DNA from: a virus
Direction: 5' to 3' (one strand)
DNA length: 64,000 nucleotides
IMG/VR virus record: IMGVR_UViG_3300043436_002865
Location: 1-64,000 of that record
How positions within the stretch are numbered: position 1 is the stretch's first letter; every line of letters begins with the position of its first letter. Below are positions 945 to 33,593 of the stretch, one piece after another. Both the position numbers and the translations under genes were made by a program. The notes below the pieces were generated by a model. It ran no database searches. It saw only the letters and a list, made by a program, of their open reading frames with translations, and was not told the origin of the DNA.

Positions 945-1171
945 TGATTTGCAAAACGCCCCATCGCTATTTCAAAATTTTGAGCGTCTAGCACATTTTC
1001 AAAATGAAATGTATGTTCGTACACAGCAGTCCAAATTGATACGCTCCACTGATGCCTTTGTAGGCATTTTCTACACCAAGCTTTTCCTTGATCTACCACA
1101 TCACTATGAAGCCTGACAGTAAATCCTGGAAGCCATTTTAACTTATATTCGTGGATCTCTATTGGTTCCAT
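941..1171 (-). CDS. hypothetical protein, about 76 aa
   Basis: Unrecognised small protein. The start at 1171 is preferred over an upstream in-frame ATG at 1204 because AGAGGA lies 6 nt before it; the resulting protein begins MEPIEIHEYKLKW. It overlaps the end of the kinase-like gene by 13 nt. A pair of cysteines (CRKC) lies about a third of the way in, too few to call a zinc finger. It belongs to the same co-transcribed run as its neighbours. Confidence 0.65.
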   Translation of the reverse strand: MEPIEIHEYKLKWLPGFTVRLHSDVVDQGKAWCRKCLQRHQWSVSIWTAVYEHTFHFENVLDAQNFEIAMGRFANQ

Positions 1172-1797
1172 GATTGGTCCTCTAAATTTTCTTCTGCCCA
1201 ACAAGATAAATCAGGAATATCTTGCATATCAATATTACACCAAGGATCAGTGATTACAATCACTCCATCCCTAAGCATAAGATTACCTGTATGTATATCT
1301 AAACACCGGTCCTCATAGCCTTCATACCAAATTTCATCTAAAGTATTGCCTTGCGAATCTAACTTTTTAGAGTTAAATACTGTGTTAGTTTTAATAATAT
1401 TTACAGCCTGCATAAACTCATTAACATTAGGAACCATATCGGGAAAAGCTTCTAGCTCGTCCTTAATATCGTCTTCCGTTATAATAGTATCAATGTAGTC
1501 TCTTACTAGATCAGCAATCTTGCAAGCGCTAGGATGCTTATAAACTTCTGTAAGACGCTCCATAGTAGCAATATAGTAAGAATCTTCAGCATGGAATGAA
1601 TGAACACGCGGAATATGGGTGTTAGCTTGTAAAGGCTTAACAACCATATGATAGTAGTCTAACCACGGATCTCCCATGTCAGCGCCTACCTTAATAACTT
1701 TGTCGGAGCCTGAAGAGAGAACTGCACTATAGCAGCCAACTCCCAGAACACGAGTGCCCTTCTTAGTAAGATTCTTGATGATTTTATGTGCCGGCAT
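1159..1797 (-). CDS. protein-kinase-like phosphotransferase
   Basis: 212 aa with the landmarks of a minimal protein kinase fold. A glycine-rich loop near residues 18-25 (GVGCYSAV) is followed by the lysine motif KVIKVG near residues 33-38. Near residues 165-185 there is a catalytic-loop-like DIHTGNLML, then VITDPW, which resembles the metal-binding DxD/DFG position. Such compact kinases occur in many large phages and are thought to modify host proteins, but the substrate here is unknown. The gene ends with TAG, a rare stop in this window, and has its own promoter at 1819-1847. An aminoglycoside-phosphotransferase-like small-molecule kinase is the main alternative. Confidence 0.75.
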   Translation of the reverse strand: MPAHKIIKNLTKKGTRVLGVGCYSAVLSSGSDKVIKVGADMGDPWLDYYHMVVKPLQANTHIPRVHSFHAEDSYYIATMERLTEVYKHPSACKIADLVRDYIDTIITEDDIKDELEAFPDMVPNVNEFMQAVNIIKTNTVFNSKKLDSQGNTLDEIWYEGYEDRCLDIHTGNLMLRDGVIVITDPWCNIDMQDIPDLSCWAEENLEDQSWNQ

Positions 1798-3532: not shown

Positions 3533-4086
3533 TAATGTACTCCAGTACTTCCAAACCCGCCAATTCTGTTGGTTTTTTGAACAGGTTTATTTTTTGTTTC
3601 TGCAAGCGAATAAAATTCGCTTTTAATAGCTTCACCCTGAGCTACTCGATCACCATCTAAAATTGTTACTGCAGAATCAGATGTATTGTATAGAGTGATA
3701 AATGTTGGATCAACATAATCACTATCAATAACACCCTCACAGTTGATAAGCGTAATGCCTTGCTTAAGAGCAAGTCCACTACGAGGATGAATCCTAACAG
3801 AATACCCTTCAGGAATATCTATAATGAGATTTGTAGGAACTAAGTATCTATGTCCAGGCTTGAGCACTAACTTTTTATCTTCTGTGATTGTATTAGTTTC
3901 TTTAGAGTTAAGCCAGCTGTATGACGTTACTTCTGAACCTTCAATTAAACTGGCTTTAAAATCAAAGCAAGCTGAGCCAGTAGTTGCAAACTCTGGAAGG
4001 TATGCTGATTCGTGTGTTTTATAAAATGATAAAGTAGGGGTCATTGCTGATTCGTGAGTTTTATAAAATGATAAGGTAGTGGTCAT
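3532..4086 (-). CDS. dut: dUTPase with duplicated N terminus
   Basis: 184 aa deoxyuridine triphosphatase, which hydrolyses dUTP to dUMP and PPi and so keeps uracil out of DNA and feeds dTMP synthesis. Motifs visible in order: GSACFDFKA (motif 1-like), HPRSGLALK (motif 2), GVIDSDYVD (motif 3), GDRVAQGE (motif 4) and GGFGSTG (motif 5) at the C terminus, which closes over the active site. The first 28 residues are two copies of a 14-residue unit (LSFYKTHESA core) encoded by a 42-bp tandem repeat, so a second in-frame ATG at 4044 could also start translation. An insert between motifs 1 and 2 makes it slightly longer than bacterial Dut. Confidence 0.93.
   Translation of the reverse strand: MTTTLSFYKTHESAMTPTLSFYKTHESAYLPEFATTGSACFDFKASLIEGSEVTSYSWLNSKETNTITEDKKLVLKPGHRYLVPTNLIIDIPEGYSVRIHPRSGLALKQGITLINCEGVIDSDYVDPTFITLYNTSDSAVTILDGDRVAQGEAIKSEFYSLAETKNKPVQKTNRIGGFGSTGVH
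4003..4086 (-). repeat. 42-bp tandem duplication at the dUTPase start
   Basis: Units 4003-4044 and 4045-4086 match at 39 of 42 positions. Each contains a start codon, so the duplication gives the gene two possible starts and a doubled N-terminal peptide. Confidence 0.95.
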
Positions 4087-4274: not shown

Positions 4275-4516
4275 TAGTTGGCCTCTTTAATGTTTGTTTC
4301 GGGTTTAAACCAGTCTTTACCGTTAACCCGAATAAACGGCTTATTAGTTTCACTCTTGTTAGGGTTTGCAATAGCAACCATAGTACGCTTTCCAGCACGG
4401 AAAGCTTTAAGCTGATTCATCAGCTTATCTGCCGGGTTTTTAGTAGCAGTTTTAACCGACGAGCTACGCAAGCCCATCGACACTTTACCCTTAGACTTAC
4501 CGCCTTTTTTAGCCAT
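4274..4516 (-). CDS. basic hypothetical protein, 80 aa
   Basis: Starts MAKKGGKSKGKVSMG and is rich in Lys, Gly and Ser in its first half, then has a short strand-like IRVNGKDWFKP segment. The basic disordered N terminus would allow nucleic-acid binding, but there is no motif to support that. It is the first gene after the promoter at 4560-4588, with AAGGAA before its ATG. Confidence 0.65.
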   Translation of the reverse strand: MAKKGGKSKGKVSMGLRSSSVKTATKNPADKLMNQLKAFRAGKRTMVAIANPNKSETNKPFIRVNGKDWFKPETNIKEAN

Positions 4517-4596: not shown

Positions 4597-4812
4597 TTAC
4601 ATAAAGTAGTGCAAGCCTAGCAGTCTTTTTACAATTTCAGAAATCGGATTATCTAGATTAGGTTTGGGAGCTAATTTTGTACTAATAGGCTCTTGTACGC
4701 TTAGGTATATTCTATATCCTATAGCTCTATGAATTTTCTTTAAATATTTTTTAAGCACAAAATACACTGTAACTACCATTCTTAAAATAAAATTATTTTT
4801 GCTACTTGCCAT
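4597..4812 (-). CDS. hypothetical protein, about 71 aa
   Basis: Short protein starting MASSKNNFILRMVVTVYFVLKKYLKK: one hydrophobic stretch of about 14 residues flanked by lysines, possibly membrane-associated. The start at 4812 is preferred because the longer reading frame would run through the divergent promoter at 4806-4834. There is no convincing ribosome site, so the gene is uncertain. Confidence 0.4.
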   Translation of the reverse strand: MASSKNNFILRMVVTVYFVLKKYLKKIHRAIGYRIYLSVQEPISTKLAPKPNLDNPISEIVKRLLGLHYFM

Positions 4813-4834
4813 TTTTATCAACCTGCGGTATAAT
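4806..4834 (+). promoter_or_regulatory. sigma-70-like promoter of the envelope operon
   Basis: TTGCCA (4806-4811), 17-bp spacer, TATAAT (4829-4834). The expected start (about 4841) is only a base or two before the ATG at 4843, so the first gene would be translated from an essentially leaderless message. This is the only strong plus-strand promoter before 12954. Confidence 0.75.
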
Positions 4835-4842
4835 AGACTTAT

Positions 4843-5343
4843 ATGAAACATACTATGTTATTATTAAGTTTATTGCTGCTATTAGGTTGCAATAAGTTTG
4901 AAATCACAAAAAAAGAAGCTACGCCAGTAACTGAAAGTCTTATATACTCTGCTTGGAGTTACATAGGTAAAAGCGAAAGATATGATAGACGCTATTTGTC
5001 GGAACTACTAACAGTAGATCCGGTAACTACTGAGTGGTGTGCTGCTTTTGTTAATTCAGTACTAAAAGAAAATAACATACCTACTAGCGACCATAATCTA
5101 TTAGCTAAAAGTTTCTTAGAGTGGGGAACTAAAGTTCCTAAAGAAGAAATACAAAAAGGCGATATAGTTATATTTCCAAGAGGGAATATGAGCTGGCAGG
5201 GGCATGTAGGTTTTTACGTTGGTTCTACTAAAATAGGAGTAACAGAATTTTACTCTATACTCGGAGGAAACCAAGAGAATAAAGTTAGTATAGACTTATA
5301 TAGAGCCAGTCGTGCTATAGGTATCAGACGTTATATACCTTAA
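4843..5343 (+). CDS. lipoprotein CHAP/NlpC-type cell-wall peptidase
   Basis: 166 aa. A lipoprotein signal ends in the lipobox LLLGC (Cys16), so the enzyme is probably tethered to a membrane. The mature part resembles the TIGR02594-type cysteine peptidases found in phage endolysins: EWCAAF (catalytic Cys near residue 66), KGDIVIF, then GHVGFY (catalytic His) and LGGNQ. It would cut peptide bonds in peptidoglycan. As first gene of the operon, ahead of a holin-like gene, it could be a lysis enzyme or could open the cell wall locally for the CsgG channel. Membrane anchoring is unusual for an endolysin. Confidence 0.85.
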   Translation: MKHTMLLLSLLLLLGCNKFEITKKEATPVTESLIYSAWSYIGKSERYDRRYLSELLTVDPVTTEWCAAFVNSVLKENNIPTSDHNLLAKSFLEWGTKVPKEEIQKGDIVIFPRGNMSWQGHVGFYVGSTKIGVTEFYSILGGNQENKVSIDLYRASRAIGIRRYIP

Positions 5344-5384
5344 CAAAAATATAAGCAAATGTCAAGTTTAAAAAGGATTTATAC

Positions 5385-5663
5385 ATGGATTTTCTAAATT
5401 TAGTAACAGAAGTAGGATTTCCTATAGCTTCTTCATTAGCTGGTGGGTTTTTCGTATTCTTAACACTTAGATTTATTCTTGATGGCGTGCTTGGCAGTAT
5501 TAAAACTCAGCGATCATTTGTAATAGCTTTAGATAATAGAGTAAAGACTATGAATAATGAACTAGTGAGAATTGACGTACTTATATGTAACGCTTTTAAT
5601 GTTAGACCAGACTTAGATAGAATTGCAAGAGCTGATGGCCAGAAAGATGCCAGAAAAGATTAA
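5385..5663 (+). CDS. holin-like/YvrJ-like membrane protein, copy 1
   Basis: 92 aa, beginning MDFLNLVTEVGFPIASSLAGG. One membrane segment spans about residues 10-32, followed by an amphipathic helix (LDNRVKTMNNELVRIDVLI). The GFPI start and coiled tail resemble YvrJ- and BhlA/UviB-type holin-like proteins. The product at 7817 has the same architecture and shared residues (GFPI, then a Gly-rich membrane segment, then a D-R heptad helix), so the two are probably paralogues. AAGGA precedes the ATG. Confidence 0.65.
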   Translation: MDFLNLVTEVGFPIASSLAGGFFVFLTLRFILDGVLGSIKTQRSFVIALDNRVKTMNNELVRIDVLICNAFNVRPDLDRIARADGQKDARKD

Positions 5664-5682
5664 AACTAATAAGGAGTAGTCT

Positions 5683-6024
5683 ATGGATTTTCTTATAGGA
5701 CTAGCACTAACTGCTCATTTAGGGTTTGGAAATAATGTTAATGATTTTCATCCTACGTTGCAGTTACAAAATAATTCTTTTATAGCAGGAGCATTTTATA
5801 ATAGTGAGTCTAATGCTAGTTTATATGCTGGATTTATACGGGATATAGGTAAGATAGATATTGAATTTGGACTAGCTACAGGATACTCTACGAGTTCTGT
5901 AGTGCCTTTTGTAAGAGGCGTTTATAATGTAAATGATAATATTAATGTATTTGTGGTGCCCGCACCAAGAAAGGACGGTAATTTAGGAATAGTACTAGGT
6001 ACCCAGATACACTGGAGAAATTAA
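5683..6024 (+). CDS. small exported beta-rich protein
   Basis: 113 aa. A short hydrophobic start (MDFLIGLALTAHLGFG) may act as a signal peptide. The rest alternates like beta strands (LYAGFIRDIGKIDIEFGLATGY, VPFVRGVYNV, INVFVVPA, LGIVLGTQIHW), as in small outer-membrane barrels or surface proteins. AGGAG lies before the ATG and the next gene begins one base after its stop. Family not recognised. Confidence 0.65.
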   Translation: MDFLIGLALTAHLGFGNNVNDFHPTLQLQNNSFIAGAFYNSESNASLYAGFIRDIGKIDIEFGLATGYSTSSVVPFVRGVYNVNDNINVFVVPAPRKDGNLGIVLGTQIHWRN

Positions 6025-7800
6025 GTGAATAAAATAATACTAAACAGTTTAGCAGTTTTAATGATTACTACTGCGGCTCTTGCAGATAGTTCTAGTTTGC
6101 AAGGTTCTGGAATGGGTCTACTAGAAAATCAATGGGTAAAAGCAGGAATAAATAAAGACTCGGGAACCTTTGGGTCTGGAGGAAATACTTCTCCTGGATT
6201 GTTATTTGACCCAACAGGTACTGGAACATTTAATGCTGGTTATGACTACCTAACTCCAGGTGCTCCTTTTGACGGTCAGTCACTAAAAATTGATGGTACA
6301 AACTATACCAATAATAATGGTGGAGGAAGTACTATAGCTGCAACCGATACTTTAGTAGATGGTACAGATAGTTTAACTTGGACTGGCTCAGTAGCTGGAT
6401 GGATTATTGAAAATATATTTACACTTGGCGACGATAAACCCTACGTTGATGTAACTACTAGAATTACGGCTGGCAGTGCAGCTACAGACGTGTGGTATTC
6501 TAAATTTATAGATCCAGATTCTCAAGGTATGCCCGGAGATAGTTCTGCTACCGATAACGTATTAGGTTATGGTACTATTCCTATTGATAATGTTGCTTTT
6601 TCTGAAGCTACAGTATCAAGATATGCTCTTGGTTTATACTCTACCGATTCTTATGTTTCTGCGGGTATAAATAATTGGAGTTCTCAAGCAGACTCTTATA
6701 CTAATGCAGATATATATGGCAGCGGTGCTACATATGGTAATGGTGACGACACTATAGGACTAAGCTGGTATTGGTCTGGAGTATCTGTTGGAGATATTCT
6801 TGAAGCTAATTATGCTTATATATTTGGCCCTAGTTCTTTTGCCGCTCTAACTAGTGCAATTTCTGGCGGAGCTGGTGGTGGTGTTGATGTTACTGGAGGA
6901 GCAGGAGTTACTGATATTGGTTCTGCTACAGATGCAGCTGCAGGTGGCGGTAGTACTCCAGTTATTACTACTGCGACTATTGTAAACTCAGCTCTACCAG
7001 TACTAACAGCTAGTATAACAAGTCATACTTCTAGCGTAGCTGACGACGTTCAAACTATCTCTAGAGCACTTACCACAACTACAACTACTCCTATGGTAAC
7101 AGTTACTTATACTGATGGAGTCGAAACTTCTAGAGTAACTACAACTAGCGTAATTAGCACTGTAGTAACTAATCCAGGTGCTTTTACTGGTAGAGTAGAT
7201 CAAGTTAAAATACTATCCCTAGATAATCAAAAACTACGTTTTAAGGCAGGTATTACTGGTGTATATAATGAAGCTATGTACGTAGGCTTAGGAAAAGATT
7301 TCGATAGCGGACTGAACTTAGCTTTTGGATTTGTTAAAAAGGACGGCGACAAAAAGATTGGTCTATCTGTAAACAGCAACGGTTTTAGTTTAGGAGTTGC
7401 TAAAGTTATGGCTAATCACGAATACTCTAGAACTATAGGTGATTTTACTAATGCAGGAAGCACCTCTGAAGATGGTTATGAGTTACTAGTAGATTATAAA
7501 AGCGATAAAAAAGGGTTTTCTCCTATTTTAGGGCTTACTATAGGATCTACAACTGTAAGCAGTTGGGCTGAAAGCGGTGCTATTCAATCTGCATTATCTT
7601 ATGATGAAATTAAACAATCATATAACATATTAACTCTAGGTGCTGGATATAATACTGATAATTTTGGTATTTATACTTCTTACAACACAGCTTCAGAACT
7701 TGATGTTTCACTAACCGTAAAAGATATAGAAGTTGGCATGGTTAGAGACATGGATAATGACACTAGTGCTTTTGCGCTAGGATACTCTTTTAGCTTTTAA
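6025..7800 (+). CDS. exported barrel-ended surface protein
   Basis: 591 aa, GTG start with GGAG 7 nt upstream. Signal peptide MNKIILNSLAVLMITTAALA. The passenger (about 21-280) is rich in Gly, Ser, Thr and Asp, like bacterial surface proteins; residues about 280-390 are a low-complexity Gly/Thr/Val linker. The last 200 residues show alternating strands and end in ALGYSFSF, a C-terminal aromatic signal like that used by the outer-membrane assembly machinery. The architecture suggests an autotransporter-like outer-membrane protein. It stands between the two holin-like genes and just before csgF, so it may be part of the same surface structure. No family was recognised. Confidence 0.75.
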   Translation: MNKIILNSLAVLMITTAALADSSSLQGSGMGLLENQWVKAGINKDSGTFGSGGNTSPGLLFDPTGTGTFNAGYDYLTPGAPFDGQSLKIDGTNYTNNNGGGSTIAATDTLVDGTDSLTWTGSVAGWIIENIFTLGDDKPYVDVTTRITAGSAATDVWYSKFIDPDSQGMPGDSSATDNVLGYGTIPIDNVAFSEATVSRYALGLYSTDSYVSAGINNWSSQADSYTNADIYGSGATYGNGDDTIGLSWYWSGVSVGDILEANYAYIFGPSSFAALTSAISGGAGGGVDVTGGAGVTDIGSATDAAAGGGSTPVITTATIVNSALPVLTASITSHTSSVADDVQTISRALTTTTTTPMVTVTYTDGVETSRVTTTSVISTVVTNPGAFTGRVDQVKILSLDNQKLRFKAGITGVYNEAMYVGLGKDFDSGLNLAFGFVKKDGDKKIGLSVNSNGFSLGVAKVMANHEYSRTIGDFTNAGSTSEDGYELLVDYKSDKKGFSPILGLTIGSTTVSSWAESGAIQSALSYDEIKQSYNILTLGAGYNTDNFGIYTSYNTASELDVSLTVKDIEVGMVRDMDNDTSAFALGYSFSF

Positions 7801-7816
7801 TTATTAAGGAATAAAT

Positions 7817-8140
7817 ATGGATCTAACAAACATTGCTTCAGCAATTAATCAATACGGATTTCCGATTATAGCAGCTTTTGGGCTAGGATACTTTATATAC
7901 TATATATGGACTTGGGTTACCCAAGAAGTTGATCCGGTTGTAAATGAATCTCATATGACACTAATAGCTCTTATAGACAGAATACGAATGCTAGATAATG
8001 ATATTATAAGATTAAATACAAAACTAAACATGATTCTACAAGAACAAGAAAGAAAAAATAGAGGAGCAAACAATGAGAATACTGCTGATAGCGATACTAG
8101 CACTAGCCCCATTCAAAGCAATAGCTCAAGAAGCTTATAA
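7817..8140 (+). CDS. holin-like/YvrJ-like membrane protein, copy 2
   Basis: 107 aa with a GFPIIAAFGLGYFIYYIW membrane segment (about 13-34), an amphipathic helix (LIDRIRMLDNDIIRLNTKL), then a polar Asn/Ser-rich tail. Probable paralogue of the protein at 5385. The last 68 nt overlap csgF in another frame, which explains the low-complexity tail. It could be a holin or an inner-membrane partner of the secretion channel. Confidence 0.65.
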   Translation: MDLTNIASAINQYGFPIIAAFGLGYFIYYIWTWVTQEVDPVVNESHMTLIALIDRIRMLDNDIIRLNTKLNMILQEQERKNRGANNENTADSDTSTSPIQSNSSRSL

Positions 8141-8510
8141 CTTTAATAATCCTTCTTTTTCTGGAGTCGGATATTCTTCTCATGTGTTAACGCTAGAGCA
8201 GATGACACAGAACGCCGAACAAAAAGAAAAAGATAGAATACAGGCAGAAATAGACGAAGCTCTAAGAGACGAAGAAAACTCTAACTTAAATAGATTTATA
8301 AACAACTTTGAATCTAGAGTTTATGCTCAATTATCTAAAAAACTAGTAGAAACACTATTTAGTGAAGATGCTACTTCTTATGGATCTTTTGAACTGGCTG
8401 GTAATACTGTAGAATATGTAAACGATGGAATTGATGTTAGTCTAACTATAATAGGTCCAGACGGTAGTACTACAAGTATAACTATACCTATAGGGAGTTT
8501 AGGCTTATGA
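8073..8510 (+). CDS. csgF: CsgF-like curli assembly protein
   Basis: 145 aa with signal peptide MRILLIAILALAPFKAIA. The mature N terminus (YNFNNPSFSG) matches the CsgF pattern FxNPxFGG, the segment that plugs into and lines the CsgG pore. The C-terminal half (VSLTIIGPDGSTTSITIP) matches the strand-rich CsgF C terminus. CsgF couples the outer-membrane CsgG channel to curlin nucleation at the surface. It lies immediately before csgG (4-nt overlap) and has a strong GAGGAG ribosome site inside the previous gene. Confidence 0.9.
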   Translation: MRILLIAILALAPFKAIAQEAYNFNNPSFSGVGYSSHVLTLEQMTQNAEQKEKDRIQAEIDEALRDEENSNLNRFINNFESRVYAQLSKKLVETLFSEDATSYGSFELAGNTVEYVNDGIDVSLTIIGPDGSTTSITIPIGSLGL

Positions 8511-9238
8511 GGCTATACTTACTACCATTACTTCTACTAGCATCTTGTTCTACTGCTACAGTACAACCGCTGTTAGAGCCAAAAATAGTTGAAGATATTC
8601 AATATAGTAGTCCAGCTCCTAAAAAAGGTCCTATAATAGTAGGAGTATACTCTTATACAGATATGACAGGGCAGAGACAAGGAACTGGGCTATCTTCTGC
8701 AGTTACTCAGGGGGCTGAAAACTATTTAATAGATGGTCTAAAAGACTATAGTAATGGAACATGGTTTAGAGTTCTAGAACGAAAAAATATAGAGAATATT
8801 ATTAAAGAAAGACAGATAATAAGATCAGCTATGGATGAAGTTAATCCTGAGTCTGAGCTTCCTTCTATGTTATACGCAGGTATGTTAGTAGAAGGTGGTA
8901 TAGTTGGTTATGATGCAAATACTTTATCAGGCGGCGATGGTGTAAGAGTTTTTGGAATAGGTGTTTCTGAAAAATATACTAAGCACACGGTTACTGTAGC
9001 TATAAGAGCTATATCAGTAGCTACTTCAGAAGTACTAGCATCTATTCTGGTAGAGAAAGAAATATTAAGTACTACAGACAACTTAACAACCACTAAATTT
9101 TTTGACTTAGATAGAAAGGTAATAGAGATAGAATCAGGTACTACTACTAACGAAGCTTCTAACTACGCAGTACGCTCAGCTGTTAACAAAGCTGTTCACG
9201 AACTAGTATTAGAAGGTTTAAGCAATAAATTGTGGTAG
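8507..9238 (+). CDS. csgG: CsgG-like outer-membrane secretion channel
   Basis: 243 aa lipoprotein: lipobox LLLASC, Cys14. Family signatures run through the protein: TGLSSAVTQGAENYL, WFRVLER, NIIKERQIIR, MLVEGGIVGYDAN, GVRVFGIG, then the strand-forming segment and FFDLDRKVIEIESG, TNEASNYAVRSA. CsgG forms a nonameric outer-membrane pore that exports unfolded curlin subunits. The protein is slightly shorter than E. coli CsgG (277 aa), lacking its C-terminal tail. It ends with TAG; read-through would add only four residues. CsgG/CsgF pairs are known in some marine phages; here they sit with a putative substrate and a cyclase. Confidence 0.95.
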   Translation: MRLYLLPLLLLASCSTATVQPLLEPKIVEDIQYSSPAPKKGPIIVGVYSYTDMTGQRQGTGLSSAVTQGAENYLIDGLKDYSNGTWFRVLERKNIENIIKERQIIRSAMDEVNPESELPSMLYAGMLVEGGIVGYDANTLSGGDGVRVFGIGVSEKYTKHTVTVAIRAISVATSEVLASILVEKEILSTTDNLTTTKFFDLDRKVIEIESGTTTNEASNYAVRSAVNKAVHELVLEGLSNKLW

Positions 9239-9249
9239 GGAGAAACAAA

Positions 9250-9933
9250 ATGAAAAGCTTATTATGGGCTATACCCTTAATAATAATAGCTTCAAGTGTG
9301 TACGCAGATCAAAGCGTATACATTGATCAAGTAAGTGGTGATAACCTAATATTTGATGTTATTCAAAGAAACGGAGATGGTAACAAAGTTGGAGATTCAT
9401 CTGCTCCATCTCCATATTTAGTGATAGACGGTTCTAATCAGACAATAACTGTTTTACAAGATGGTTCTAGCAATAAGCTAACAGGCACTATAGAGGCTAC
9501 CACTCTATCTTTTAACTTAACTAATACTGGTGACTCTAATTTAATGGATTTTATAATAGCTAACGGTGACAATAGCGATTATTTGATCTCTTATACCGGT
9601 AGTGGAAATGAGCTAAGCTGGACTTCAGGCTCTTCTGTTTCTTCATCCTACGCAGATATAGATTATGATATTATAGGAGACTACAATATATTTACTATAG
9701 GTGTAGAATCTGATGGAGCTAAACAAGACTTAACTTACTCTGGAGACGAAAACGAAGTTACTATAACTCAAATAGGATACGGCTCTGCAGTAGGTGGGCA
9801 TATTATTATACATAACTTAGTTGGAGATTCTAACATAGTTGATATTACGCAAGAAACTACTCTAGCAGCCTCGGTGATTAACCTTGATACGAATGGCAGT
9901 AATCAAACTATTACTATTACTCAGTCTGACTAA
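9250..9933 (+). CDS. curlin-repeat exported protein, putative CsgG substrate
   Basis: 227 aa starting MKSLLWAIP with signal peptide ending SSVYA; GGGAG lies before the ATG. The mature part contains degenerate curlin-like repeats with the G-x-x-N-x-x-x-I/V-x-Q pattern: GSNQTITVLQ, GSSNKLTG, GDENEVTITQ, GDSNIVDITQ, GSNQTITITQ. In CsgA and CsgB such repeats stack into a beta-solenoid amyloid. Position directly after csgG suggests it is secreted through that channel. The spacing of repeats is irregular, so it may be a nucleator or cap rather than a fibre subunit. Confidence 0.8.
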   Translation: MKSLLWAIPLIIIASSVYADQSVYIDQVSGDNLIFDVIQRNGDGNKVGDSSAPSPYLVIDGSNQTITVLQDGSSNKLTGTIEATTLSFNLTNTGDSNLMDFIIANGDNSDYLISYTGSGNELSWTSGSSVSSSYADIDYDIIGDYNIFTIGVESDGAKQDLTYSGDENEVTITQIGYGSAVGGHIIIHNLVGDSNIVDITQETTLAASVINLDTNGSNQTITITQSD

Positions 9934-10924
9934 CTCTGCTTTTGCTAATATAGGATCTGTTACTGAGTATAAAGGTTCTGGCGTATTAGAGAGAGAAGCA
10001 GATATTTTAGAAACTACTTTAGATTTACCGGTAGAAACCAATGATTTTGTTGTTACAGCTAAAGGAGTTGTGGGAATAACTTTTGAAGATGACACTCAAG
10101 TAAGGGTGGGAGAACATAGTGAGCTATTAATAGACGATTTTGTTTATGATCCTAATAGCTCTTCTGGATCTTTAGGGTTAAAAGTAGCTATGGGTACTGT
10201 TAAATATGCTTCTGGTAGTATAGCTCATAACAACCCTGATACTGTAGATATACAAACTCCGTCAGCTACTATAGCTGTTAGAGGAACTGCATTTTCTATG
10301 ACTGTAGACGAACTAGGTAGTTCTTTAGTTATACTGCTACCTAACTTTGATGGTAGCGTAGGAGAAATTATTGTAGGCACAGATGCTGGTCAAGTAATAC
10401 TTAATAAAGCATTTCAAGCTACTTCAGTATCTGGAAGAGATGCTAAACCTAAACAGCCTGTGATACTAGCTATAGATGAAAGCATGATAAATAACTTATT
10501 AATTATTGCACCGCCTAAAAGAGTAGTTAAAGAGTTAGTAGAAGAAAATAAAAATAATCCGTTAGCTATAAATTTTTTAGACTATGACGAATTAGGTGAG
10601 GATCTATTAGCTTCTACAGATTTAGCATTTGATACTTTAACTATAAACGAATTAATAACAAATCTACTAGGTAATATGTTAGCTAATGTTTTTAATTCAG
10701 ATATTGACGGAAGAATAGCAGGTTTTAATAATGAGACAGGCGTATACACTTTTATAGACGATTCTAGGGCTAGAGTAGCAAGATATTCTGCTAATAGCTA
10801 TGTTGATGTATTTTTTACTCAAGAATCGGGTATAAATATGTCATTATTTCAAACGGATGCAGAAGTATATATAAATACACTAGATCCAGGATCAGATAAC
10901 TTACTAAGGATTAATCAACAATGA
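9893..10924 (+). CDS. FecR-domain exported protein
   Basis: About 343 aa starting MAVIKLLLLLSLTNSAFA (signal peptide). Residues about 20-170 form a FecR-type domain: VTAKGVVGITFEDDTQVRVGEHSELLIDDF, then KVAMGTVKYASG, IQTPSATIAVRGTAFSM, characteristic of FecR proteins encoded beside CHASE2 sensors. The rest, to VYINTLDPG, is unassigned. It overlaps the curlin gene by 41 nt and the cyclase gene by 4 nt. It probably acts in the periplasm as a partner of the CHASE2 domain. The start at 9893 lacks a good ribosome site, so coupling to the curlin gene is likely. Confidence 0.88.
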   Translation: MAVIKLLLLLSLTNSAFANIGSVTEYKGSGVLEREADILETTLDLPVETNDFVVTAKGVVGITFEDDTQVRVGEHSELLIDDFVYDPNSSSGSLGLKVAMGTVKYASGSIAHNNPDTVDIQTPSATIAVRGTAFSMTVDELGSSLVILLPNFDGSVGEIIVGTDAGQVILNKAFQATSVSGRDAKPKQPVILAIDESMINNLLIIAPPKRVVKELVEENKNNPLAINFLDYDELGEDLLASTDLAFDTLTINELITNLLGNMLANVFNSDIDGRIAGFNNETGVYTFIDDSRARVARYSANSYVDVFFTQESGINMSLFQTDAEVYINTLDPGSDNLLRINQQ

Positions 10925-12954
10925 AATTTTTATTATCTCCGCTACAAGCCTGCGTAACTTCGTTACTGTTAATATGGGCTATAATGTCTAACACTACACT
11001 ATTGCAAAACATAGAACTAAAGTTTTATGACCAGCTTATAGTGTCAGAAGTTATTGAGTCAAGCGATGCAGTGCTAATAGATATAGGTGAAGCATCTCTA
11101 GAACAATACGGTCAATATCCTTTTGAACGTAATGTTTATGGAGAACTAATTAGTAAACTTAGAGATGCAAATGCTGGTGTGATAGTATTTAATATGTCAT
11201 TCCCAGAAGAGGATAGAACAGGCAATGATGAGTCTTTTAAAGCTATGCTGGGAAATGGTGTTGTTATCTCACACTTCCCTTCGACACAAACTGACGGGCG
11301 AGCAGCCTATACTACTGGTATTGTGGAAGTTGGTCCACGTGCTCTTCCTTATGTTCCTAGCTATAGCGGCATTGCTGCTAATATTAGCGAGTATGAAGAT
11401 AGGGCTAGCGGAATTGGTATTGCAAACACTATACCAGAGATTGATGGAGTTGTACGTCGTCTTCCAATGATATCTGCAGTAGACGAAACACTATATCCGT
11501 CTATTGTTCTTGAGATTTTAAAAGTTTATATGAACACTAATACTTACCAAGTAAAATCTAATGATCTTGGTGTAGAAGCTGTACGAGTAAAAGGCTTTCC
11601 CACTATAAACACCGATGGTAACGCTAGAATATGGATAAATCCTAATTATAGTTTTAAGCGATACGAAATGACTGAAGAGTTTCCAGATTTACAAGGAGCT
11701 ACAGTTTTTATAGGAGTTACAGCTGAAGGTATATCAAATCCTGTACCAACAGCTACAGGAGCTGCCTTTGGTCATGAAGTTACTGCTAAAGCATTTACAT
11801 CAGTAGTTAATTCTTATAACATATCGTCTCCAGTATTTAGCGATGCTATAAAAATTCTTACAATGATAGCACTAAGTATTGCTATAATTAGTTTTTCATA
11901 TATTAAATATGGCTGGGTTGCTTCAATTATCGCAGTAGGCTATGCTATAGTATTTCCGTTTCAACAGTTCTATTTATACGCAGAGCTATATAACACAGCA
12001 CTACCAGCTATAATGAGCATACTAATATTTGCACATGTGTATGGGCTAAAGTATGGTCAAGAGTATTTTGCTAAACTTCGTATTAAAAAGCAGTTTGGAG
12101 GGTATGCGTCTCCTGAAGTTGTTGAGATATTACAACGCAATCCTGATCTTATTAAACACGGAATGAAACGAGAAGTTTCAATCTGCTTTAGCGATCTTCG
12201 CGGATTCACACCGCTTGGTGAATCGTTCGGGGATGATGTAAAAGGTCTAACAGAAGTAATGAACGGATATATGGATGCTATCACTCAGCCTGTTTTAGAT
12301 GCCAAAGGTATGATAATTAAGTATATAGGCGACGCTTCTATGCACATTCACAATGCACCTATTGAAGATCCTAACCATGCTAAATCAGCTGTTCAAACAG
12401 GTCTAAACATGTTAAAAGCGGTAGAAACTTTCAATGAAAAGCTAGTTGCAAGCGGTCGTCCTCGTGTAGGTATGGGTGCAGGTATTAATACTGGACTAGG
12501 TTATATTGGAGAAATGGGTAGTACTGCTAGACACTCTTACGATGTTCTTGGTGATGCGGTTTCAACTACTGCACGACTAGAAGGACAATGTAAAGCTTAT
12601 GGAGTACTACTGATAATTGGTCCTAGCACGTACGAGCAAACTAAAGATGACTTCTTTTATCTCAAACTTGATGATCTTGCTGTAAAAGGTAAGAGCGTTG
12701 GACTAGAAATATATACTGTGTTACAAGATCCCAAGCCTGAGTGGGCTAAGCTAAAAGAAATTCATACTGAAATGCTAAAACTATACAGACAAAAACAATT
12801 TAAAAAAGCAATAATTTTATGTGAGTCACTAAAAGGTAATTTTAATAATCAAATGAATGGATACTATGATATGTGGATTGAGCGTTGTAATTTTATGGAA
12901 ACTCAACCACTACCAGATAATTGGGATGGTATTTTTAGAGCTACCACTAAATGA
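10921..12954 (+). CDS. CHASE2-domain class III adenylate cyclase
   Basis: 677 aa. N-terminal membrane segment (about 5-23), periplasmic CHASE2 sensor (about 30-295: AVLIDIGEASLEQYGQYPF, RNVYGELISKL, IDGVVRRLPMI), three membrane helices (about 305-380), then a class III cyclase domain (about 415-605). Metal-binding Asp425 (FSDLRGFT) and Asp471 (YIGDA) are present, as are Lys467 and Asp541, the pair that selects ATP, and Arg552. The transition-state Asn is replaced by Ser548 (GDAVSTTARLE). It would make cAMP in response to an envelope signal. A short C-terminal helical tail (about 615-677) follows. The gene ends just before a strong terminator. Confidence 0.95.
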   Translation: MKFLLSPLQACVTSLLLIWAIMSNTTLLQNIELKFYDQLIVSEVIESSDAVLIDIGEASLEQYGQYPFERNVYGELISKLRDANAGVIVFNMSFPEEDRTGNDESFKAMLGNGVVISHFPSTQTDGRAAYTTGIVEVGPRALPYVPSYSGIAANISEYEDRASGIGIANTIPEIDGVVRRLPMISAVDETLYPSIVLEILKVYMNTNTYQVKSNDLGVEAVRVKGFPTINTDGNARIWINPNYSFKRYEMTEEFPDLQGATVFIGVTAEGISNPVPTATGAAFGHEVTAKAFTSVVNSYNISSPVFSDAIKILTMIALSIAIISFSYIKYGWVASIIAVGYAIVFPFQQFYLYAELYNTALPAIMSILIFAHVYGLKYGQEYFAKLRIKKQFGGYASPEVVEILQRNPDLIKHGMKREVSICFSDLRGFTPLGESFGDDVKGLTEVMNGYMDAITQPVLDAKGMIIKYIGDASMHIHNAPIEDPNHAKSAVQTGLNMLKAVETFNEKLVASGRPRVGMGAGINTGLGYIGEMGSTARHSYDVLGDAVSTTARLEGQCKAYGVLLIIGPSTYEQTKDDFFYLKLDDLAVKGKSVGLEIYTVLQDPKPEWAKLKEIHTEMLKLYRQKQFKKAIILCESLKGNFNNQMNGYYDMWIERCNFMETQPLPDNWDGIFRATTK

Positions 12955-12958
12955 AAAT

Positions 12959-12986
12959 AACGCCACCTTTTGGGTGGCGTTTTTTA
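12959..12986. terminator. bidirectional intrinsic terminator
   Basis: AACGCCACC (12959-12967) pairs with GGTGGCGTT (12973-12981) around a 5-nt loop, followed by a T run. It lies between the convergent cyclase gene and the minus-strand gene at 12987 and can serve both. Confidence 0.9.
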
Positions 12987-13178
12987 TTAACTAATTAAAA
13001 ACTGTAGATCTTTTAGGTCGTCTCTCAAGACAAAATCGTTTGGTAAACTTACAGCTTCACCATTTTTAATTTTATCACACAGCTTACTAGCTTCTGATAA
13101 ACTAATTGAGGTGTGCTTTGTTATAACTTTAGGAGCAGTTTTAAAATCTGCTCCTGCTTTATATCCAATAACTAACAT
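12987..13178 (-). CDS. hypothetical protein, 63 aa
   Basis: Small alpha/beta protein; residues 28-45 (SEASKLCDKIKNGEAVSL) look like a helix followed by a turn. Last gene of a minus-strand run, ending at the shared terminator. AGGAG-type site before the ATG. No family recognised. Confidence 0.65.
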   Translation of the reverse strand: MLVIGYKAGADFKTAPKVITKHTSISLSEASKLCDKIKNGEAVSLPNDFVLRDDLKDLQFLIS

Positions 13179-13202
13179 CTTATTCTCCTAACAGAGTCTA
13201 AG

Positions 13203-13622
13203 CTATATTGGACCTAATATTTCATAACCGCTTATATTTTCTTTGTATGGATGATGACCACCTAGATAATAGTATTTATAACCTAGTGCTTTATACCATG
13301 CACATTCATGAAAATTAGCTTTCCAACCTAACTGTAAACTCGGATTTTTATAATTCCATGCAAATTGTATTCCTCGAACGCTTATCTCATCTAAATGAGA
13401 AATTATAGAAAACGCTACTAGATCTGAGTTATCAAAATATCCAATAACGTCGCTGTTGAGAATTTCATAGTTAAAAAGAGGTTCTACAGAAGAAAATCTT
13501 TTATACCTACAATAATCTGTATATATAATGTTTAATGCTTCTATATTAGGATTAATTAATACAGAAGCATTATCATCTAGTTTGTAGTTTGTTTTTGTTA
13601 AATCTATTCTACCATACTTCAT
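13203..13622 (-). CDS. GNAT-fold, aminoacyl-tRNA-protein transferase-like protein
   Basis: 139 aa. The pattern VIGYFDNSDLVAFSIISHL, then QFAWNYKNPSLQLGWKANFHECAWYKALGYKYYYLGGH resembles the C-terminal acetyltransferase-like half of arginyl-tRNA-protein transferases, where a small aromatic-rich core binds the charged tRNA end. It is too short to be a full transferase. A general GNAT acyltransferase acting on a sugar or peptide is an equal possibility. It ends with TAG. It overlaps by 1 nt the gene upstream, with which it probably works. Confidence 0.5.
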   Translation of the reverse strand: MKYGRIDLTKTNYKLDDNASVLINPNIEALNIIYTDYCRYKRFSSVEPLFNYEILNSDVIGYFDNSDLVAFSIISHLDEISVRGIQFAWNYKNPSLQLGWKANFHECAWYKALGYKYYYLGGHHPYKENISGYEILGPI

Positions 13623-14302
13623 TACTTTACTAGAAATCCTAATCGCCTTTCAGTAGTATAAGGATATACATCACTCATATCTTCTTCGTCTGGCAGATAG
13701 GCATATCCTAAAGCAATATAAGAATCTATATCAATAGCATCAGATGCCCAAACAGGTATATACTCATTATAGTTTGAATCTAAACTTCCATCAGGATTGC
13801 CTGAACCTCTAAGATGTACTTCAATAGGATTCTGGCCTTTAAATTCTATATTGATAATAAACCCAGAGAGTTCATTAAACTCTCTTGGAACTTCTGGTAT
13901 GTAAGAACTACTACGCTCCCATTTAGTAAACTTAGTTAAATTGTTAGAGTTATTATATCCTATCCAACAATGTAACGGCTCCCAGTAAGGTTTACTAGTA
14001 TTAATTCCACCATGTCTAAATTTATAAGTAGCAGAATAGTGAAAGCCTTTAAAATACTCACACCAAAAATAACCGGGAGGTACAGCAGATTTATCTCCTG
14101 CATCAATCCATTTAACTGAAGCTCCCAGCCCCATTCCAGCTAAATTATAAATAGGTCTAACAACATAGTAATCAGAAACAGTAGGTGCGGTACCCGAAGG
14201 CCCGCACTTATAGTTTAAAAGCTCTGATATATATAGTTTATTAAACCATTTATGATATTTAGGATATTTATCCCATAATTCATAGTCTGCTAGATTTTCC
14301 AT
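13622..14302 (-). CDS. hypothetical protein, 226 aa
   Basis: Unrecognised, aromatic-rich soluble protein. It begins MENLADYELWDKYPKYHKWFNKLYIS and contains YYVVRPIYNLAGMGLGAS and PGYFWCEYFKGFHYSATYKF, strings that look like parts of an ATP-grasp-type or nucleotide-binding fold but lack clear catalytic residues. It is coupled to the GNAT-like gene after it and follows the tRNA cluster without a promoter, so it may be expressed by read-through from the tRNAs. Confidence 0.65.
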   Translation of the reverse strand: MENLADYELWDKYPKYHKWFNKLYISELLNYKCGPSGTAPTVSDYYVVRPIYNLAGMGLGASVKWIDAGDKSAVPPGYFWCEYFKGFHYSATYKFRHGGINTSKPYWEPLHCWIGYNNSNNLTKFTKWERSSSYIPEVPREFNELSGFIINIEFKGQNPIEVHLRGSGNPDGSLDSNYNEYIPVWASDAIDIDSYIALGYAYLPDEEDMSDVYPYTTERRLGFLVK

Positions 14303-14310
14303 TAAACCTC

Positions 14311-14384
14311 TGGTGCCGATAGAGAGAATCGAACTCCCGTCAGCTGATTACTAATCAGCTGCTAAACCACTCAGCTATACCGGC
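14311..14384 (-). tRNA. tRNA, anticodon AGU (Thr)
   Basis: 74 nt with encoded CCA. Acceptor GCCGGTA/TATCGGC, anticodon arm GCTGA-TTAGTAA-TCAGC, T arm GGGAG-TTCGATT-CTCTC, discriminator A. The anticodon reads AGU, so Thr by code. A34 is unusual in bacteria for Thr. Confidence 0.85.
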
Positions 14385-14391
14385 ATTAACT

Positions 14392-14467
14392 TGGCTGGGA
14401 AGGGTGGATTCGAACCACCAACCAACGGATTCAAAGTCCGCTACTCTACCAATTGAGCTACTTCCCA
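14392..14467 (-). tRNA. tRNA-Gln (UUG)
   Basis: 76 nt, encoded CCA, acceptor TGGGAAG/CTTCCCA with U1-A72 and discriminator G as in bacterial tRNA-Gln. Anticodon loop CTTTGAA gives UUG. Confidence 0.93.
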
Positions 14468-14617
14468 ATAAACTTTTGCGCATTAAATAAGGCAGGTGCG
14501 GTATCTGCTAGTTTATGAAACTAGGTGCCCATGCTCCTTTTACAGCGTTGCGCGGGTGCTGCTTCAAACCTATGCCTATGATCACTTGGCGTGTTTGAAC
14601 TTTCCTTACCTTAATTA
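14468..14617 (-). ncRNA. structured RNA candidate A in the tRNA cluster
   Basis: 150 nt without a plausible gene, locally richer in GC than nearby coding DNA. Minus-strand pairings seen by eye include TTCAAAC with GTTTGAA enclosing GCC/GGC, CAGC with GCTG, the perfect hairpin CTAGTTT-CAT-AAACTAG, and GCAG/CTGC. It lies between tRNA-Ser and tRNA-Gln and would be cut from the same precursor. It resembles in position the stable RNAs of unknown function in the T4 tRNA cluster. No known family matched from memory. Confidence 0.5.
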
Positions 14618-14705
14618 TGGCGGTGAGGGTGGGATTCGAACCCACGGTACGTTTCCGTACGCTGGTTTTCTAGACCAGTTCCTTAAACCACTCGGACACC
14701 TAACC
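14618..14705 (-). tRNA. tRNA-Ser (AGA)
   Basis: 88 nt, class II with long variable arm, encoded CCA and discriminator G as in tRNA-Ser. Anticodon arm CTGGT-CTAGAAA-ACCAG reads AGA. Acceptor GGTTAGG/CCTCACC has one mismatch (T4-C69). A34 is unusual. Confidence 0.88.
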
Positions 14706-14712
14706 TAAGTAT

Positions 14713-14997
14713 TTACTTGCTATTTAATTTATTTGTTAAGCTACTAATAGTATTTAGTAGTCTTGTGTTATTACAAGCTAGTGCAAAGTTTTTTACTTGT
14801 AAATTGATAATACTTGATAAGTAAATAATATCACGAGAATCAGCAGGAGTATTCATGTAATTCTTACACACAGCTCCTGCAACTACTTTATATAGATGCT
14901 CTTCGTCTATTTCTAACATTCCAAAGTCGAAGTATTCATCGCCGTCAGCAACTTTTGCCAATTCTACTAATTGGTCTAAAGTAATTTGCTTGTTCAA
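14713..14997 (-). CDS. hypothetical protein, 94 aa
   Basis: Helical, mildly acidic protein (LDQLVELAKVADGDEYFDFGMLEIDEEHLYKVVAG), possibly a small binding or regulatory protein. No motif is visible. It lies between the glycosyltransferase gene and the tRNA-Ser gene, in the same direction, with an AGGAGA site before its start. Confidence 0.65.
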   Translation of the reverse strand: MNKQITLDQLVELAKVADGDEYFDFGMLEIDEEHLYKVVAGAVCKNYMNTPADSRDIIYLSSIINLQVKNFALACNNTRLLNTISSLTNKLNSK

Positions 14998-15013
14998 ATA
15001 TTATCTCCTAATA

Positions 15014-15640
15014 CTACTGAGTAGAATATTTTAAAAAATTCTCTCTGTGTCTTCTGTAGTATAATAATGCTTGATTATGATAAGCTAGTGTAGCACCTCT
15101 TTTACGCATTTGCTGCCACAGATGCCAATCTTCATTAGGTTGATTACCGCTAAATGTTCTAGCTTCATAACCTATTTCTTGACCTAGTTTTGTTCTATAC
15201 AACATAGACCCATGATGAGCTGCTGTTCTAGTCCAATATAAATCACCGTTATTACAACTCACTTCAGGAGCTTCTAAACTAGGAGGCAATTTACCTTTAA
15301 GTTCTCCAGTAACCATTATATCATAAGTAACAATATCTGTAACAGGAGGACTTAAAACTTCTATAGCATCCGACCTAAACCAGTTATCAGCTCCTATAAA
15401 CATAACATATTCAGAGCGCACTCTCATAAGCATATCTTGAAAATTGCTTACAGTACCTAAGTTTTTATCTCTAAAAATATACTCTACTTCAGGGTATAAG
15501 CTAGGCAAATGAGTACAATCGCCAACACCATCATCAACAAACATTATGTGAGCTGGTTGAACAGTCTGACTTAAAATAGACTCAATGCAGTGGGCTGCTA
15601 AATGTCCATACTTATAAGAAGCTACTACTACAGTAATCAT
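15014..15640 (-). CDS. glycosyltransferase family 2
   Basis: 208 aa GT-A fold. N-terminal VVVASYKYGHLAAHCIESILSQT and FVDDGVGD form the nucleotide-sugar binding half. The metal-binding DxD-like position reads FIGADN near residue 82. The C-terminal part ends NEDWHLWQQMRKRG, like the acceptor-side ED motif. It would move a sugar from a nucleotide donor to an unknown acceptor. It follows the PhyH-like oxygenase gene by a 4-nt overlap and is shorter than most family members. Confidence 0.85.
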   Translation of the reverse strand: MITVVVASYKYGHLAAHCIESILSQTVQPAHIMFVDDGVGDCTHLPSLYPEVEYIFRDKNLGTVSNFQDMLMRVRSEYVMFIGADNWFRSDAIEVLSPPVTDIVTYDIMVTGELKGKLPPSLEAPEVSCNNGDLYWTRTAAHHGSMLYRTKLGQEIGYEARTFSGNQPNEDWHLWQQMRKRGATLAYHNQALLYYRRHRENFLKYSTQ

Positions 15641-18229: not shown

Positions 18230-18304
18230 TGGTGGTCCTAACAGGAATTGAACCTGCATTTCAGCGTTTTAGAGGCGCGTGCATAGCCATCATGCTCTAG
18301 GACC
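18230..18304 (-). tRNA. tRNA-like gene, anticodon CUA (possible amber suppressor)
   Basis: 75 nt, encoded CCA, discriminator A, perfect acceptor GGTCCTA/TAGGACC, D arm GCAT-GATGGCT-ATGC, T arm GCAGG-TTCAATT-CCTGT. The anticodon loop C-T-CTA-A-A reads CUA, complementary to UAG. The anticodon stem has only three good pairs, with mismatches at 27-43 and 31-39, so function is uncertain. UAG is a rare stop in this window. Confidence 0.65.
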
Positions 18305-33000: not shown

Positions 33001-33264
33001 TTAATTACCTTTGCCTTTTCCATTTATTTCATTTCCGCTTGAACCATAAAAATACCCTATTACAGTCGATACACAAGTACCTAATAGAAATCCTAAAATG
33101 ATATTAGCAAAGCCTTCCGCAGCAGCGTGTATTGGTAAGAATGTTACTGCAAAGAAATAAATAGAGCTTACTATAGACCAAAACCATGCAAAAATATATA
33201 CAAATTTAGATGCCATTTCATCGCCTTTCTTTATTAGTTGTTCGTGCGCATTATCTTCTGTCAT
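33001..33264 (-). CDS. holin-like membrane protein, 87 aa
   Basis: Two membrane segments (about 21-45: FVYIFAWFWSIVSSIYFFAVTFL; about 50-72: FANIILGFLLGTCVSTVIGYFYG) and a polar Gly/Lys tail. Its form is familiar from marine phages, where it is often called a holin-like protein. Together with the EF-hand membrane protein next to it, it may form a membrane complex. Direct lysis role unproven. Confidence 0.7.
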   Translation of the reverse strand: MTEDNAHEQLIKKGDEMASKFVYIFAWFWSIVSSIYFFAVTFLPIHAAAEGFANIILGFLLGTCVSTVIGYFYGSSGNEINGKGKGN

Positions 33265-33275
33265 AAAATAACTCC

Positions 33276-33593
33276 TTATTTGCTCATATAAGCACTAGCC
33301 CCAAAAAAGGTTGCAACAGTTCCTGCTTGGGCTATGTAAAACATTGATAGTATATTGTCTAATGCTGCTAATCTATCAATAGTTATAAAAGGTAAAAACA
33401 ACATTATAGTAAAACCAACCATAGATAACATTGCAACCCATGCCATTTGTCTTAGTTGATCTTCTTTTCTATCCCTATTCTCAGTTTCTATCATAGATTG
33501 TGCTTTTATCATTTCTTCGTCGGTAACTACTCCATCACCGTCAACATCGAATTTTGCATAAGCAGAGCCTGTTTCTAGCGTCTTAGCGTTCAT
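33276..33593 (-). CDS. EF-hand membrane protein, 105 aa
   Basis: Residues about 14-30, KFDVDGDGVVTDEEMIK, form a canonical calcium-binding EF-hand loop (D-x-D-x-D-G...E). Two membrane helices follow (about 50-70 and 78-102). The combination suggests a calcium-sensing membrane protein; partner may be the holin-like protein next to it. Known from some marine phages, function unknown. Confidence 0.8.
   Translation of the reverse strand: MNAKTLETGSAYAKFDVDGDGVVTDEEMIKAQSMIETENRDRKEDQLRQMAWVAMLSMVGFTIMLFLPFITIDRLAALDNILSMFYIAQAGTVATFFGASAYMSK

Follow-up and report, generated by a model that had tools for sequence, protein, structure and literature searches.

A curli-type secretion module with a predicted FecR–CHASE2-adenylate cyclase sensor in a T5-like phage contig

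How a curli machine, absent from their streamlined hosts, benefits phages is a question still to be answered in marine virology. It concerns a block of ten genes in the IMG/VR virus contig IMGVR_UViG_3300043436_002865 (67,931 bp), of which we analysed positions 1–64,000, called here the window and used for all coordinates. In order, the genes encode an NlpC/P60 lipoprotein (ORF1; ORF, open reading frame), a small membrane protein (small-A), ORF3, a secreted protein of 591 amino acids (aa; ORF4), a second small membrane protein (small-B), CsgF, CsgG, a curlin-like protein, a FecR-domain protein and a CHASE2-adenylate cyclase (Table 1). We propose, with a probability of roughly 0.6, that they would specify a phage type VIII secretion system joined to a FecR–CHASE2-cyclase sensor and would place an amyloid-like protein on the surface of infected cells. 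The idea of a secreted curlin together with a periplasm-facing cyclase had been put forward in an earlier note on this DNA and is supported here. The same note held that no phage combines CsgG and CsgF with a substrate and a sensor producing cyclic AMP (cAMP). This was wrong, since the module is annotated or published in phages HTVC008M and Melnitz and in the pelagiphages of Wittmers et al. 2022 (PMC9599517); all 38 well-covered relatives surveyed here carry it as well. The block is a rearranged version of this known phage module, in a third phage lineage.

Related CsgG proteins are encoded by at least 587 IMG/VR contigs, and the counts of completeness given below refer to the 38 surveyed contigs (designated here by L numbers) that span enough sequence. 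The genes for CsgF, CsgG, curlin, FecR and cyclase follow one another in the same order in all 38, as they do in HTVC008M and Melnitz; the survey of other phages suggested in the note did find this core order. Two copies of the phrog_18771-type small membrane family accompany them in 37 of the 38, and the linkage persists even in contigs where genes are inverted. The full set, the small pair and their retention despite inversions together point to the module being a functional unit, with a minimal set of two small membrane proteins, CsgF, CsgG, curlin, FecR and cyclase. A second curlin gene after FecR is frequent in phage modules but not universal and is therefore not strictly defining: it is absent from the window, where the FecR and cyclase genes abut with a 4-nucleotide (nt) overlap, and from L022, L028, L032 and L415.

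The module or parts of it are also present in contigs of 217–340 kb (L075, L076, L396) and thus reach jumbo-size phage contigs. Full or partial phage modules, mostly with the small pair, occur in metagenome-assembled genomes of Flavobacteriaceae, Rhodobacteraceae and Pelagibacter (L104, L105, L106, L111, L117, L124, L145); these module contigs are likely misbinned phage DNA. OR851715.1 (L004), an unverified 'Salmonella phage' contig of 1.5 kb that contains an unannotated csgG, is probably host DNA.

Channel, presumed substrate and sensor

CsgF, CsgG, FecR and CHASE2 all score above their Pfam cut-offs. ORF1, ORF4, CsgF, CsgG, the curlin-like protein and FecR have recognizable lipoprotein or cleavable signal sequences, improved start codons having been assigned to the last two (ATG at 9250 and at 9893). 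The curlin-like protein includes 7 GxxN motifs spaced 22–30 residues apart (p 0.0008, shuffling). Its AlphaFold2 model, obtained with 13 phage sequences (predicted local distance difference test score, pLDDT, 80.5; predicted template-modelling score, pTM, 0.75), has a strand–GxxN–strand arrangement with strand pairs flanking most GxxN turns. Foldseek alone gave no significant match to this model: no E value was better than 0.06, and the CsgA fibril 8enq ranked 18th. When the Foldseek matches were re-aligned, Pontibacter CsgA 8c50 came first (Z 18.9, 22% identity, root-mean-square deviation 8.8 over 208 residues), with generic beta-helices (SufB/D; SufD) scoring about equally on Z. In covered contigs the gene always lies between those for CsgG and FecR. 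Given the predicted fold, the CsgA match and this fixed place after csgG, the protein is most likely a curlin-type solenoid.

The cyclase retains Asp425 and Asp471, Lys467 and Asp541, and Arg552, which we take to be the metal aspartates, the ATP specificity pair and the catalytic arginine, respectively. A FecR gene lies directly upstream of a CHASE2-cyclase gene in three Hyphomonas-related bacteria (L255, L256, L258) with no curli genes nearby, and because the two occur together there, they appear to be a sensor pair in their own right. A reading as anti-phage defence was rejected: only the cyclase domain matches Pycsar cyclase models, a result to be expected of many class III cyclases.

The gene identities, the conserved linkage, the T5-like carrier described below and the predicted solenoid fold are the established part of our account; beyond them we infer secretion, a coupling of FecR to the cyclase, a cAMP output and a benefit to the phage. 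CsgG and CsgF would form an outer-membrane channel during infection and export the curlin-like solenoid, perhaps together with the ORF4 protein, onto the surface of the infected cell, while the NlpC/P60 lipoprotein would trim the murein locally. Periplasmic FecR would monitor the channel, the exported protein or the envelope and, through the CHASE2 domain, influence the inner-membrane cyclase and so alter cAMP, and the two small membrane proteins would be obligate inner-membrane partners of the system. The benefit would be an altered cell surface leading to superinfection exclusion or to adhesion and aggregation, among which sequence does not decide. The benefits named in the earlier note (exclusion, binding of cells, control of exit) had each been published before: superinfection exclusion and aggregation by Wittmers et al. 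2022 (PMC9599517), cell aggregation or 'sibling capture' by Zaragoza-Solas et al. 2020 (PMC7029224), and lysis control, for the curli operon of Melnitz, by Buchholz et al. 2022 (PMC9004378).

Several observations weigh against this proposal. Cultures infected with Melnitz showed no clumping (PMC9004378). The curlin repeat profile PF07012 matches the presumed substrate with E 0.0052 and 17.2 bits, against a cut-off of 20.7, and the NCBIfam CsgA match (9e-5) is under its curated cut-off; in the parts list of the note, CsgF, CsgG, FecR, the CHASE2-cyclase and NlpC/P60 are supported by profiles above cut-off, the curlin repeat by weak matches below it. We found no cNMP-binding protein (cAMP receptor) in the phage record, so that any cAMP would act via host proteins. 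Finally, class III cyclases usually carry a transition-state Asn, which serves full activity and not family membership, and position 548 of the window enzyme is a Ser, which leaves its cyclase activity plausible but uncertain. Among aligned phage cyclases this residue is Ser in 29 and Asn in 32. Its occurrence in 29 phage enzymes suggests that the Ser-type (window, Melnitz, L005) is an inherited cyclase subtype and not a random lesion.

The small membrane pair, the cargo and rival functions

Small-A and small-B had been described as two holin-like paralogues. The paralogy is borne out, both proteins matching phrog_18771; the holin label is not, the profile searches giving, among holin families, a single marginal match for small-B (phrog_4898, E 0.78) and none for small-A. 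Small-A proteins from different contigs are 46–68% identical in one set and up to 87% in another comparison. The pair stands directly before csgF or, in a minority of contigs, on the opposite strand past the cyclase. When the test was reversed, 73 of the best 80 small-A contigs were found to hold module genes, the other 7 being short or ending near the gene, and among 50,697 phage records the family is confined to HTVC008M and Melnitz, both CsgG carriers. From its near-constant presence and module-exclusive occurrence, the small pair appears to be as fixed a component as the channel. Wittmers et al. 2022 (PMC9599517) stated that one or two histidine kinases invariably precede the module genes. 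Two small-family members stand before csgF in HTVC008M, with one further short annotated ORF between, and from this position the reported kinases are probably the small membrane family. Proteins of 92–107 aa with one likely membrane segment, for which profile searches of small-A and small-B gave no kinase domain match, would be too small for a histidine kinase; the label at this position is a likely misannotation.

Small transmembrane paralogues and an NlpC/P60 lipoprotein within one operon would also suit a role in lysis timing, with CsgG as a gated or pinholin-like pore, the small proteins acting as holins and the lipoprotein as murein hydrolase. This has been proposed for Melnitz (PMC9004378), and in L415 the module adjoins a lysis cassette. 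However, separate lysis genes are present both in L415 (for an M15 endolysin and the two spanins) and in L356 (for an endolysin and a spanin), so that lysis would not have to be a task of the module; no convincing holin family match was obtained, and a pore alone would not need the curlin-like gene that every covered contig keeps. The separate lysis genes and the constant curlin make a lysis replacement improbable, and the conserved full set weakens the idea of a pore acting alone.

ORF1 homologues adjoin the small-A gene in L016, L018, L356 and L358. Homologues of ORF3, in which no signal peptide was seen, sit within other modules. Relatives of ORF4 were found in 13 IMG/VR contigs, all 13 with module genes, and none was detectable in the annotated phage collection; its structural model (pLDDT 41) was unreliable and was not used, so that the 'barrel-ended' label given to this protein earlier is not confirmed. 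In its relatives ORF4 is usually found with ORF3 between the second curlin and the cyclase, but it lies between csgF and csgG in L427, and in the window both genes have shifted upstream and separate small-A from small-B. In L415, a T5-like contig, another protein, of 630 aa, occupies the interval between small-B and csgF. The module would therefore seem to combine an invariant core with large secreted proteins that can be exchanged, the 591-aa gene being a movable module-specific cargo. That a third phage lineage has the complete module, with such a core and cargo, suggests selection for the signalling and secretion unit as a whole.

Two further small proteins, both predicted to lie in the membrane and one of them containing an EF-hand motif, are encoded at 33004–33264 (- strand) and 33279–33593 (- strand), 20 kb from the module. 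Their homologues lie between small-A and small-B in L356, beside csgF in L067 and beside the cyclase in L013.

The variable large secreted proteins that accompany the module (591 aa and 630 aa) could instead coat released virions or debris, or serve as particle adhesins, leaving the surface of the living cell unchanged. An outer-membrane channel works only before lysis, however, and we regard this explanation as unlikely. Uptake of a nutrient or cofactor through the channel, with FecR and the cyclase as nutrient sensors, has been proposed in the literature, and FecR is known from iron-citrate signalling; but uptake would leave CsgF and the conserved curlin-like genes unexplained, the block contains no FecA-type receptor or sigma factor, and we consider it very unlikely. 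Export of a curlin-like protein onto infected cells, with the FecR–cyclase sensor reporting on export or on the envelope, is the explanation we prefer.

Locus, carrier phage and bacterial relatives

All ten genes of the earlier note were located, on the + strand and closely packed between 4843 and 12954, with gaps that are short or replaced by overlaps (4 nt for CsgF/CsgG, as for FecR/cyclase, and 68 nt for small-B/CsgF). The neighbouring genes to the left and right are on the - strand, in agreement with the strand change described at both edges. Of the single promoter and strong terminator said to enclose the block, the terminator is well supported (Table 1); one promoter for the whole block is plausible, but promoter-like sites are no commoner in the region (32) than in shuffled sequence (38.4).

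Table 1. Features of the ten-gene block and its borders (window coordinates; TM, transmembrane)
Feature	Position	Strand	Evidence or remark
Best sigma70-like promoter, TTGCCA-17-TATAAT	4806–4834	+	11/12 matches; ends 8 nt ahead of first ATG
ORF1, lipoprotein with NlpC/P60 peptidase domain	4843–5343	+	NLPC_P60 above cut-off; TIGR02594; lipobox LLLLLGC
Small-A, 92-aa single-TM membrane protein	5385–5663	+	phrog_18771
ORF3, 113-aa small beta-barrel-like protein	5683–6024	+	weak PagP-family match, 4.6e-8
ORF4, 591-aa secreted protein with signal peptide	6025–7800	+	putative module-specific cargo; matches no Pfam family
Small-B, 107-aa membrane paralogue of small-A	7817–8140	+	phrog_18771
CsgF	8073–8510	+	Pfam PF10614, E 1e-15, above cut-off
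CsgG, outer-membrane secretion channel lipoprotein	8507–9238	+	Pfam PF03783, E 1.5e-42, above cut-off
Curlin-like beta-solenoid protein, presumed substrate	9250–9933	+	weak profile matches, GxxN motifs, AlphaFold2 model
FecR-domain periplasmic protein with signal peptide	9893–10924	+	Pfam PF04773, E 3.5e-9, above cut-off
CHASE2 and class III adenylate cyclase	10921–12954	+	CHASE2 1.3e-36, Guanylate_cyc 6.5e-16, both above cut-off
Intrinsic terminator, usable in either direction	12959–12981	+	folding z -6.3

The best matches of the window DNA polymerase are all to T5-like phages of ~110–118 kb (Providencia PSTCR5, Aeromonas AhSzq-1, Salmonella S114). The window also encodes SbcCD-type proteins, an NAD-dependent ligase, a DnaB helicase, a primase and 13 tRNAs. 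Judged from its replication genes, the carrier is a T5-like phage of marine type, of which the record is a fragment. A polymerase 59% identical to that of the window was found in one of 51 other module contigs tested, L415 (72 kb), and the link of the module with T5-like phages is thus seen twice; in another test a T4-type capsid protein was present in 5 of 27 module contigs. L356 (62.6 kb) carries the module between homologues of the genes that flank it in the window, on the left (1162–1797, 2493–2933, 3535–4086, 4277–4516) and on the right (13206–13622, 13625–14302), a strong argument against a chance chimera. As for the concern that the block might be a bacterial island or an assembly chimera, no second same-strain contig reaches the module (a 100% identical contig backs 15,437–34,912 and stops at 15,437), but we give this next to no credence and reject it on the L356 flanks, the T5-like polymerase and module on one contig in L415 and the uniform guanine-plus-cytosine content; together with SbcCD and the window polymerase, these indicate a phage.

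Among the neighbouring genes, 1162–1797 (- strand) resembles the T7 gp0.7-type kinase/host transcription inhibitor family (phrog_15752, 7e-15), and 13206–13622 (- strand), kept beside the module in L356, has similarity to the C-terminal part of arginyl-tRNA-protein transferase (ATE_C). A tRNA with anticodon CTA (ARAGORN: tRNA-Pyl), a possible amber suppressor, lies at 18230–18304 (- strand). Recoding of TAG was considered and set aside as irrelevant to the block: TAG is the stop codon of 9 of the 71 long ORFs in the window, and the end of csgG is normal.

The 20 ordinary alphaproteobacterial curli loci that we sampled have no FecR or cyclase nearby. A 705-kb chromosome contig of Hyphomonas sp. 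TMED17 (L149) does carry csgF, csgG, curlin, FecR and CHASE2-cyclase genes in this order (9456–15479 of that contig), so that the published view of bacterial curli operons as lacking FecR and cyclase needs qualifying. The genes around this operon are ordinary bacterial ones, and it has no small pair. The TMED17 FecR matches a phage-built profile, in which it was itself included, at 2.7e-139, the next of 385 alphaproteobacteria reaching 1.1e-35. In the CsgG tree TMED17 falls inside the phage group, which is split from bacteria with 100% support. This nesting suggests a phage-to-bacterium transfer of the operon; the approximately unbiased test rejects a grouping of phages without the TMED17 CsgG at p 0.028, but long branches make the direction uncertain. 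Tentatively, the small pair, FecR and CHASE2-cyclase might even be one trans-envelope relay that reports curlin export as a surface-assembly checkpoint, with altered catalysis in the Ser-type cyclase, and that has moved as a unit among T4-like phages, podoviruses and T5-like phages and, in one case, to the chromosome of a Hyphomonas; we regard this wider scheme as possible rather than probable.

Comparison with known systems

Myoviridae and Podoviridae pelagiphages, HTVC008M and the HTVC023P-type podoviruses among them, have been described as carrying a type VIII secretion module that includes FecR and adenylate cyclase (PMC9599517), with the same CsgF–CsgG–curlin–FecR–cyclase order and with the curlin and the cyclase already recognized. 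By tblastn, cyclase and CsgG are found in both HTVC008M and Melnitz, whose annotated order is CsgF, CsgG, curlin-associated protein, FecR (unnamed in HTVC008M), second curlin and cyclase. In contrast to the pelagiphage module, that of the window has a T5-like carrier, lacks a curlin between FecR and cyclase, adds the upstream NlpC lipoprotein and the 591-aa secreted protein, and has a small pair without a histidine kinase domain. The Methylophilales phage Melnitz (PMC9004378) shares with it the core order, the small pair and a cyclase of the same Ser-type, 46% identical over the full length. Melnitz differs in belonging to the Kyanoviridae and in having a second curlin; its authors reported no CsgA/B and proposed lysis control. 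A literature search found no publication on phage curli modules of the T5-like group, and what is new here is the T5-like carrier, the module-exclusive small pair, the movable 591-aa cargo, the predicted CsgA-like solenoid and the Ser-type cyclase.

Among cellular systems, the TMED17 operon resembles the window in joining csgF, csgG, curlin, FecR and CHASE2-cyclase genes; unlike the window it has no small pair, and its cyclase is Asn-type. The bacterial FecR and CHASE2-cyclase pairs (L255, L256, L258) also have FecR just upstream, but they are short loci without curli genes, with cyclases of 733–766 aa. The curli system of E. coli (CsgA–G) includes CsgE, CsgC and CsgD, for which no match was found among the ten window genes; it has CsgG, CsgF and a solenoid substrate in common with the phage block, which adds FecR and the cyclase.

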